DNA from: an uncultured Candidatus Berkelbacteria bacterium
GTDB taxonomy: Bacteria > Patescibacteriota > UBA1384 > CAILIB01
Direction: 5' to 3'
DNA length: 45,680 nucleotides
Assembly: GCA_903834195.1 (NCBI GenBank)
Contig: CAILIB010000045.1
Span: 1 to 45,680 of the forward strand
A program made the position numbers and the translations under genes. A model generated the notes under the pieces. The model was given only the letters and a program-made list of their open reading frames with translations. It was not told the origin of the DNA and made no database searches. Shown here piece after piece: positions 6,267-43,053 of this stretch (positions within the stretch are counted from its first letter, which is position 1; the number at the start of each line of letters is the position of its first letter).

Positions 6267-6341
6267 GGAGAGGTCGCATATCCAATAGGATATTGCTCCA
6301 ACCTCGCTCATAATGAAGTGCGAGCACTTCATTCTTCACTC
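6267..6341. repeat. tRNA-Ser 5'-end duplicate plus hairpin module
   Basis: Positions 6267-6280 repeat exactly the first 14 nt of the tRNA-Ser gene (GGAGAGGTCGCATA). Then come a small hairpin (ATATCC/GGATAT, 6278-6293), CCTCGCTCATAA, a 9-bp hairpin (6312-6320 with 6325-6333, loop CGAG) and a CACT-ending spacer just before the real tRNA. The tRNA-Glu locus has the same order of parts at about 42677-42752. Confidence 0.7.
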
Positions 6342-6431
6342 GGAGAGGTCGCATAGTGGTCTAGTGCACCGCCTTGGAAAGGCGGCATACTCGAAAGGGT
6401 ATCGAGAGTCCGAATCTCTCCCTCTCCGCCA
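6342..6431 (+). tRNA. tRNA-Ser (anticodon GGA)
   Basis: 90 nt including an encoded CCA. Acceptor stem GGAGAGG (6342-6348) pairs with CCTCTCC (6421-6427). The anticodon arm is CCGCC-TTGGAAA-GGCGG, giving anticodon GGA for UCY codons. A long variable arm follows (ACTCGAAAGGGT), as expected for serine, then T arm GAGAG-TCCGAAT-CTCTC and GCCA. The T loop has TCCGAAT rather than the usual TTCRANN. Confidence 0.95.
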
Positions 6432-6439
6432 AAGTGAAA

Positions 6440-6465
6440 AGCTCAGTTAAAGACTGGGCTTTTTG
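6440..6465 (+). terminator. tRNA-Ser terminator
   Basis: AGCTCAG (6440-6446), loop of seven, CTGGGCT (6454-6460) with one G·T pair, followed by TTTTG. It lies between the tRNA and the repeated downstream element. Confidence 0.7.
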
Positions 6466-6476
6466 CTTTGGAAAGA

Positions 6477-6652
6477 AGAGATTCGGACTAGGAAAGGGGT
6501 CGGGAAAACACTTGTTTTCCCGTAGAGGAGAGCAGCGAATGAAATGAGCGATGAGAACCTGTGAATGTTCTGGGAGAACATTCACGTACCACGTGCAAGC
6601 ATGCCATTATCAATGGGTTCTCATCCCGTTCGATTCCTCTCCCTCTCCGCCA
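6477..6652. mobile_element. tRNA-associated 176-nt structured element, copy A
   Basis: The left end, 6477-6489, is the exact reverse complement of the tRNA-Ser T arm (6407-6419). The right end, 6637-6652, repeats the last 16 nt of the tRNA including CCA. Between them lies a core shared with the copy at 42878-43053: AAAGGGGTCGGGAAAAC, a 9-bp hairpin (6501-6509/6514-6522), an 11-bp hairpin (6561-6571/6575-6585), the segment GTGCAAGCATGCCA, and a small terminal hairpin (6604-6616). A 10-bp long-range pairing (6550-6559 with 6616-6625) is specific to this copy. There is no ORF. The layout resembles an integration at a tRNA 3' end with a displaced att-like fragment, but it is far too small to encode an integrase. 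Classification as mobile is inference. Confidence 0.6.
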
Positions 6653-6653
6653 T

Positions 6654-6731
6654 AAAATACATACCCATCTATCACTAGTCCTCGGTACAATAATGTACCT
6701 GCGGAGTCGTTCCAGACGGGTATGTATTTTT
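6654..6731. repeat. Palindromic structured element, copy 1 (possible bidirectional terminator)
   Basis: A 13-bp perfect outer stem (6654-6666 with 6718-6730) encloses CCATC...GTCCTC, an inner hairpin GGTAC-AATAAT-GTACC and TGCGGAG. T runs at one end and A at the other allow termination on either strand, including for the gene that ends at 6762. The same constant segments with different stems occur at 36489-36560. Confidence 0.65.
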
Positions 6732-6761
6732 AGGTACACATTCACCAACTTGCTTGAATTC

Positions 6762-7289
6762 TTATTGCGCCTGAATTCCACCACCTCCAGCTGGGCCACC
6801 ACCCATACCGCCAGGAAATGCAGGGTTAACCATAATACGAGCAGCCACAGTTGAATCTGACGTATCAGGAGTAATCACAACTGAATCCCCTGATTGAATA
6901 TCGCTCACACTCGCAGTTGCACCACTATTCGTTATTACTGTAGCACTCGTAATCGACAGGGTTTGATCAGCATTCGTCCGTGAATTTGTGACAGTAATAC
7001 TTGAATCACTCACTGCTGAAACCGTCCCAAATACACCACCTCGTCCCCGACGCGCACCGCTCGGCACTCCACCAGCTGCTGCACCACCATTAAATTGTGG
7101 CACCGATGCATTTGTAGTTACCACAGCTTTGGCAGTAGTTGTTTTGCGCTTCTGATACTGCACACCACTCATAAACGCAACTCCAGCAATAACTGCCACA
7201 ACAACACCAGTAATCACCGGTTGGGTCATATATTTTTCGACTGACGCAGATTTTCGCACTGGCCGCGCTTGATGTGATTCAGGTGTCAT
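6762..7289 (-). CDS. Membrane-anchored DUF5666-like protein
   Basis: A 175-residue protein with one N-terminal membrane segment (about residues 25-43, VITGVVVAVIAGVAFMSGV) after a basic stretch, so the rest probably lies outside the membrane. The external part contains a glycine/alanine linker, an Arg-rich turn (SGARRGRGG), and a small beta domain (GTVSAVSDSSITVTN...TVITNSGATASVSDIQSGDSVVIT) that resembles DUF5666, an OB-like fold common in Patescibacteria and Actinobacteria. The C-terminus is a Gly/Pro-rich tail (FPGGMGGGPAGGGG). No enzyme motif is seen. It is transcribed divergently from uppP, and the palindrome at 6654-6731 lies 30 nt beyond its stop. Confidence 0.65.
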   Translation of the reverse strand: MTPESHQARPVRKSASVEKYMTQPVITGVVVAVIAGVAFMSGVQYQKRKTTTAKAVVTTNASVPQFNGGAAAGGVPSGARRGRGGVFGTVSAVSDSSITVTNSRTNADQTLSITSATVITNSGATASVSDIQSGDSVVITPDTSDSTVAARIMVNPAFPGGMGGGPAGGGGIQAQ

Positions 7290-42752: not shown

Positions 42753-42829
42753 GGCGCTATCGTCTAGAGGCCTAGGACATCTGGTTCTCATCCAGAAAAT
42801 CACGGGTTCAAATCCCGTTGGCGCTACCA
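42753..42829 (+). tRNA. tRNA-Glu (anticodon CTC)
   Basis: 77 nt with encoded CCA. GGCGCTA (42753-42759) pairs with TGGCGCT (42819-42825) with G·T pairs at 1-72 and 6-67. The anticodon arm TCTGG-TTCTCAT-CCAGA gives CTC, reading GAG. The T arm is ACGGG-TTCAAAT-CCCGT. D loop and overall sequence are typical of bacterial tRNA-Glu. Confidence 0.93.
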
Positions 42830-42830
42830 T

Positions 42831-42861
42831 AGAAAAAGAGGCTATTATAGCCTCTTTTTCT
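42831..42861 (+). terminator. tRNA-Glu terminator
   Basis: A perfect 14-bp stem, AGAAAAAGAGGCTA/TAGCCTCTTTTTCT, with loop TTA, starting one base after CCA. A/T tracts on both arms make it bidirectional. Confidence 0.85.
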
Positions 42862-42877
42862 ATGTCTAGTTCAGAGA

Positions 42878-43053
42878 GGGATTTGAACGGGAAAGGGGTC
42901 GGGAAAACGGAAGTTTTCCCGTAGCGGAAGGCAAGTAACGAAGTTACCGATGGAAACCTGTGAATGTTCTAGGAGAACATTCACTTACCGTGTGCAAGCT
43001 TGCCACACATTGCCGGGGGCAATGTGAATAATCAAATCCCGTTGGCGCTACCA
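42878..43053. mobile_element. tRNA-associated 176-nt structured element, copy B
   Basis: The left end GGGATTTGAAC (42878-42888) is the reverse complement of the tRNA-Glu T arm. The right end, 43032-43053, repeats the last 22 nt of that tRNA exactly, through CCA. The first nine bases of the left end can also pair with 43032-43040 to close the element. The core shared with copy A includes AAAGGGGTCGGGAAAAC, a 9-bp hairpin with a different loop (GGAA), GTAAC-GAA-GTTAC, an 11-bp hairpin identical to copy A apart from the loop, GTGCAAGCTTGCCA, and a 9-bp hairpin CACATTGCC/GGCAATGTG. There is no ORF. Mobility is inferred from the layout. Confidence 0.6.

Follow-up and report, generated by a model that had tools for sequence, protein, structure and literature searches.

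For decades RtT has figured in lists as a curious repeat behind a single tRNA operon, and it is usually described and annotated as an sRNA. At tyrT and tyrV of E. coli K-12 it reads, in the same order as the element described here, as a trailer, an inverted T arm (GGGGAAGGATGAGAAGCTTCGA), a core and the 3′ end of tRNA-Tyr. At tRNA-Pro, both in Salmonella Infantis and at proK of E. coli including K-12, the inverted segment is GAGGATGAGAACCTCCG and the copied end is that of tRNA-Pro; thus RtT, too, has ends that vary with its target. The K-12 proK locus (L276 and L280; NC_000913.3, about 3708250-3708615) carries an unannotated RtT-like unit and a truncated second one after tRNA-Pro(CGG), copy number and trailer at proK vary among E. 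coli strains (L277-L279), and at a Salmonella tRNA-Pro an integrase-like coding sequence begins after a truncated third RtT unit (L275, from about 1700). Beyond the tests reported below, the comparisons with other known systems are drawn from general knowledge. Integrase-bearing elements of tRNA 3′ ends likewise insert inside a conserved gene end and restore it, but the element described here is ~200 bp long, has neither integrase nor cargo, carries an inverted copy of its target and is retargetable. REP/REPIN sequences moved by RAYT (Y1) are also short, gene-less hairpin repeats that are presumably mobilised in trans; they differ from the present element, which has target-copied ends, sits at gene ends and is not associated with Y1 genes. 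The bridge or seek RNAs of IS110/IS1111 and the internal guides of group I introns resemble it in having a guide that spans the target junction, whereas the element-bearing genomes lack an IS110 transposase and the element has no intron signature. In the open-access literature, no description of this layout was found.

The window, by which we mean the whole 45,680-nucleotide stretch analysed, from an uncultured Candidatus Berkelbacteria bacterium, contains two stretches of 176 nt that carry the element described here, one after tRNA-Ser (6477-6652) and one after tRNA-Glu (42878-43053). Re-reading both confirmed the coordinates and sequences given in a preliminary description, and their parts are as follows.

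6342-6431, + strand: tRNA-Ser(gga), the gene whose end is copied (ARAGORN and Rfam RF00005)
6407-6419, + strand: T-arm target AGTCCGAATCTCT in tRNA-Ser (guide match)
6432-6476, + strand: trailer X of the left Ser gene end, with a terminator-like hairpin AGCTCAGT..ACTGGGCT and a T run; unlike the trailer of the right Ser copy (from sequence)
6477-6489, + strand: inverted T-arm segment (the 'guide'), 13 nt, AGAGATTCGGACT, exact reverse complement of 6407-6419
6493-6509, + strand: conserved core 17-mer AAAGGGGTCGGGAAAAC, Ser copy (4 copies in its own genome)
6501-6522, + strand: P2 hairpin CGGGAAAAC/GTTTTCCCG, Ser copy (covariation over 111 sequences; fold)
6550-6625, + strand: P3 stem GATGAGAACC/GGTTCTCATC with a 56-nt insert in its loop, Ser copy
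6561-6585: hairpin of this P3-loop insert, which also contains a CCATT/AATGG stem and which the Ser copy has in common only with the Pro and Glu copies of the same genome
6637-6652, + strand: 16-nt direct copy of the tRNA-Ser 3′ end through CCA
6653-6735, + strand: trailer of the right Ser gene-end copy, with a long terminator-like hairpin (from sequence)
42753-42829, + strand: tRNA-Glu(ctc) (ARAGORN), with T-arm target GTTCAAATCCC at 42806-42816 (guide match)
42830-42877, + strand: trailer X after tRNA-Glu, with a terminator-like hairpin AAAAAGAGGC..GCCTCTTTTT (from sequence)
42878-42888, + strand: inverted T-arm segment (the 'guide') of the Glu copy, 11 nt, GGGATTTGAAC, exact
42892-42921, + strand: core 17-mer and P2 hairpin of the Glu copy (P2 at 42900-42921)
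42949-43026, + strand: remaining core of the Glu copy, in which the 3′ strand of P3 is missing
42960-42984 and 43006-43026, + strand: common insert hairpin and CACATTGCC/GGCAATGTG pairing of the Glu copy
43032-43053, + strand: 22-nt direct copy of the tRNA-Glu 3′ end through CCA

The Ser and Glu stretches align at 82% over 116 nt (E = 4.8e-27), and both fold better than all of their dinucleotide shuffles (z = -3.6 for Ser and -3.8 for Glu). As had been noticed from the window alone, the ends match the tRNA that each copy follows, on the left as an exact inverted T arm (13 and 11 nt) and on the right as a direct repeat through CCA (16 and 22 nt), and the stems quoted as differing between the copies are present and pair in both. 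The common core that had been proposed is real, but its limits needed revision: the GTGAATGTTCT hairpin, GTGCAAGC..TGCCA and the CCATT stem are parts of an insert seen nowhere but in this genome's Ser, Pro and Glu copies, and the part conserved widely is AAAGGGGT-P2-GGAA-P3-P4. The assembly (1.13 Mb, 75.65% complete) contains four exact occurrences of the 17-mer AAAGGGGTCGGGAAAAC, each behind a tRNA, the further copies being those after tRNA-Pro (E = 4.6e-33) and tRNA-Ile (E = 9.8e-24). All four begin with the exact reverse complement of 11-13 nt of their own tRNA's T arm and end with a repeat of that tRNA's 3′ end through CCA. The Ser, Pro and Glu cores are 82-86% identical and only these three have the GTGAATGTTCT hairpin inside the P3-loop insert, so that they descend from one another, though their ends differ.

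RtT RNA (RF00391) was not matched by cmscan of positions 6300-6800 (E up to 5) or of the whole window, and the core of the element matched no Rfam family. Like RtT, the window element stands after a tRNA and is composed of a trailer, an inverted T arm matched to that tRNA, a structured core and a 3′-end copy through CCA; unlike it, it has a core of unrelated sequence and occupies protein genes and many tRNAs, whereas RtT is found mostly in tandem arrays with a T1-like piece before the core. On the best reading, the window family is a new family of RtT-like layout, distinct from RF00391. We put at about 60% the probability that its members are copies of a non-autonomous, gene-less, retargetable integrative element that restores the gene end into which it inserts. 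What has been shown is the layout, the ends matched to the target, the covariation of the core hairpins, a patchy occurrence, one core retargeted to genes that are unrelated, and a single empty site within a genus.

The preliminary description had suggested a possible tRNA-targeting element; specificity for tRNAs did not hold, since conserved protein genes also have the same core at one of their ends, 3′ or 5′. ARAGORN placed a tRNA within 200 nt upstream in 53 of 70 loci from two surveys, and none upstream in about 30 of the 86 loci that were fully parsed, a count that includes a few tRNAs missed by ARAGORN (e.g., at L025, L040, L123 and L140). Most of the tRNA-less loci are ends of conserved protein genes, named from their translated ends: EF-G (six loci), LepA, TypA, L11, L14, L32, DinB and a glycosyltransferase at the 5′ end, and S9, L33, GyrB, RpoD and also EF-G at the 3′ end. 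Conserved gene termini are targeted in either orientation, with the gene body always on the side of the guide target, so that the element is antisense to genes targeted at their 5′ end. The stretch complementary to the guide is no more than ~30 codons from the gene end and mostly falls in a strongly conserved motif such as AHIDAGKTT or an RpoD motif. A core found widely away from tRNAs had been expected to speak against an integrated element; most of the ~30 loci with no detected tRNA are of this kind, yet they show the same layout, which strengthens the mobile-element reading.

From left to right, a locus consists of the gene body (T1), the gene end with its trailer (T2 x), the guide (T2 inverted), 3-4 nt, AAAGGGGT, P2, the GGAA linker, an optional hairpin, P3, a variable P4 and T2 again. 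The unit measures ~160-230 bp and holds no genes, the core itself ~75-140 nt; the spacing from the guide to AAAGGGG is constant at 3-4 nt, and the core start lies 74-175 nt from the second gene-end copy (86 parsed loci). The guide is an inverted copy of 10-20 nt of the adjoining gene end: against its own upstream target it scored at least 10 in 83% of the 30 loci without a detected tRNA, compared with 2.4% against other loci, and it fits the left, functional gene-end copy better than the right one in 74 of 78 loci and equally well in the other 4. Mismatches between guide and target show no preference for G-U, which leaves RNA pairing of the guide unproven. In recent copies (L100, L107, L056, L034 and L045), the guide ends and the right T2 starts on one and the same target base, so that the core is centred in an inverted repeat with a third direct copy to its left. 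In tRNA copies of greater age, the guide is still matched by the left copy, and the right one is altered exactly at the junction (GTTCGAATCC to GTGAGATTCC, or an inserted hairpin). At EF-G, GyrB and RpoD loci the two gene-end copies span 66-89 nt and show 100% identity; at loci of the EF-G C-terminus, L33 and LepA they differ largely at synonymous sites, which suggests that one copy was imported from another lineage. Variants of the layout were also seen. At six loci (L016, L026, L088, L096, L111 and L264) the guide pairs with the arm of an adjacent short hairpin and not with a gene end; at L062, L075, L081, L092 and L110 the core stands directly 5′ of a tRNA with no gene-end copy, and in most cases its terminal GAC abuts the mature 5′ end of the tRNA; and tandem or clustered copies occur at L126, L144, L059, L095 and L116, as in the tyrT array.

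A direct-inverted-direct pattern, in which the guide ends and the right copy starts at one position, is also what fold-back copying at gene-end terminators would give, and such by-products of palindromes or template switching could spread by homologous recombination with no dedicated mobility. The tandem arrays at L126 and L116 and the want of any enzyme association agree with this, as does a tRNA-Gln in which the stem of the native terminator extends through CCA into the acceptor strand where no element is present (L220, genome G050). It leaves unexplained why a single conserved core, defined in sequence, should recur at dozens of genes with no relation to one another, and why the guide is constantly 3-4 nt from AAAGGGG; we regard it as unlikely, though to be taken seriously. 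Homologous recombination as such could explain the spread of an element between species at the same target, but not its retargeting.

Covariation, proposed from the two window copies, was found when many copies were aligned. Over 111 distinct sequences, P2 and P3 pair in 98.0% of cells; double changes occur in 15 of 17 P2/P3 pairs, with 226 double-change cells compared with 51.5 in shuffles, and the signal was lost when the partner strand was slid by one to three columns. In P2, for example, CGGGAAAAC becomes CGGGGAAAC or CGGAAAAAC with the partner strand changing to match. Selection acting on a folded strand is well supported by this pattern in the aligned copies. The preliminary description had proposed selection on RNA structure, and the part that stands is the folded hairpins; the folded strand may be RNA or single-stranded DNA, and G-U pairs make up only ~2% of helix cells, fewer than we would expect for an RNA helix with so much change.

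These helices bear on a second alternative, that of a gene for a structured non-coding RNA which serves the cell at tRNA ends, in processing, stability or regulation, and is kept by selection and not by mobility, as RtT is usually described. The strong covariation, the excess of G-U pairs (30) over A-C mismatches (12) on the reported strand and the same layout in RtT, annotated as an sRNA, all agree with such a gene, whereas the low share of G-U, the patchy occurrence with nearest relatives at other targets, the usual position behind a terminator, and the same core lying antisense at the 5′ ends of EF-G and LepA and at unrelated genes do not, and we consider it improbable. For the narrower suggestion that the element is an RNA acting on tRNA 3′ processing, the fit is poor: copies also lie antisense upstream of EF-G and LepA, and most stand behind a terminator that leaves no room for a promoter.

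The distribution of the core in Patescibacteria is patchy. A covariance model of P2 and P3, with E-values from a short calibration, was used for the genome surveys. The class has 13 positive genomes among 55, the richest with 7 copies, and a phylum-wide sample has 22 among 287; the other four members of the same family have none. When GTDB contigs were scanned for exact matches, at least 115 stretches were returned, nearly all from Patescibacteria among the matches listed; matches in Marinobacter, Rhodobacter, Auribacterota and a few others were taken as chance, the P2 partner strand being lacking in the printed sequence. The core was absent from 2.9 million viral contigs, 50,697 phage records and 72,556 plasmid records, and phages or plasmids as carriers were rejected on these collections.

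Nearest cores usually sit at other targets, as in the pairs EF-G and tRNA-Pro (96%), tRNA-Gln and L33 (97%) and tRNA-Ser and tRNA-Ala (98%), and genome G016 has three tRNA copies that are 95-99% identical in the core. Near-identical cores are thus found at targets that are unrelated, each with its own guide and gene-end copy, so that elements retarget. In genome G009, of the same genus as G023, tRNA-Ile is followed directly by AATCTTGCATTTT and rpsO with no element; in G023 the element is present, and the native trailer AATCTTGCATTTT follows the right gene-end copy. The pair shows a unit inserted inside a gene end and restoring it. Together with the diverged gene-end copies, it contradicts a simple target-site duplication of the whole gene end and trailer. 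The native trailer is on the right in G023 and arguably on the left in G016, and the unit in its present form may partly reflect later recombination between the repeats. Genomes were compared at species level only, so that empty sites are rare, and none was found among relatives of G053. At locus L104, a unit with an S9 tail follows an unrelated ORF whose end has AAATTTGGATTAA (~14 nt, the guide-complementary part) in common with S9, and the true S9 gene is intact 4 kb away. A long autonomous element of 4 kb was considered for this locus and rejected in favour of an off-target insertion beside a ribosomal operon, and no long autonomous version was found among the 86 parsed loci. Judged from sequence, the nearest cores, the empty site, the synonymous differences and L104 are the marks of a mobile unit whose target would be chosen by ~14 nt. 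What the window had first suggested, a gene-less mobile element with target-matched ends, integrated at tRNA 3′ ends and with selection on its hairpins, is supported.

No mover was found in the genomes searched. Reverse transcriptase (PF00078) was present in 7 of 13 element-bearing and 21 of 42 element-free genomes and Y1 transposase (PF01797) in 8 of 13 and 21 of 42, neither being found in the element's own assembly, and the IS110 DEDD transposase (PF01548) occurred in 0 of 13 element-bearing genomes; as element presence shows no association with these genes, all three were rejected. A self-splicing or reverse-splicing RNA would have as its guide the counterpart of a group I internal guide sequence, pairing with both flanking ends, and would insert by reverse splicing; the guide does span the junction just 5′ of the core, and the right copy is often altered exactly there (GTTC|GATTCC, sometimes with an inserted hairpin). 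We consider this very improbable, because Rfam gave no group I or II intron match, the core has only ~75-140 nt, the junction lacks a U-G, the unit contains terminators, insertions in antisense occur and reverse transcriptase is not associated. The element could also be a scar, or an end sequence, of an ordinary island with an integrase for gene ends, a reading that deserves equally little credence: known integrases use the same kinds of target genes, and one Salmonella record has an integrase-like sequence after a truncated RtT unit at tRNA-Pro, but no site-specific recombinase, integrase or cargo lies between the gene-end copies of the 86 parsed loci, an inverted target copy is not part of attL or attR, the core is independent of the target, and it is absent from the phage, viral and plasmid collections.

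On the reading of a retargetable integrative element, one unit would consist of a gene-end copy with its trailer, the inverted gene-end guide and the core P2-P3-P4. It would insert at a fixed point inside a conserved gene end, the gene being completed by the left copy and the native end displaced to the right. With its RNA or single-stranded DNA folded around the core, the element may recognise its target, or be joined to it, by base pairing through the inverted copy, and both guide and gene-end copy would be regenerated from every new target. The strand-transfer enzyme would be supplied in trans and not encoded in the element, and in transfer between species at the same gene, the conserved gene and the duplicated end may provide the homology by which recombination finishes the process.

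The layout is not restricted to the window core. An inverted T arm lies downstream of 110 of 281 distinct tRNAs in the fetched loci, compared with 4 in the upstream control, and 23 of the 110 lack the window core by fuzzy match, ~6 of them being divergent members and ~15 having other cores. Three other-core families with the same layout were seen at tRNAs, namely B (L069, L062, L043, L088 and L262), C (L121) and D (L113 and L137); the pattern of family C was not found again in 287 genomes. It is possible, though we hold the idea only tentatively, that a widespread class of protein-less, nucleic-acid-guided mobile elements with unrelated cores exists in Patescibacteria and Enterobacteria, in which each insertion copies part of the target into an inverted guide and a replacement gene end; almost any conserved gene end could then become a new target, and the host would survive.

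The window family, far more varied than RtT, shows the RtT layout to be a general design, with an inverted target copy, a structured core and a restored gene end, for which both core protein genes and further tRNAs can become targets. Should insertion be guided by base pairing, DNA would have here a novel means of site selection that spares the target gene. E. coli K-12 carries RtT copies at tyrT, tyrV and proK, and the question is therefore testable in that organism.
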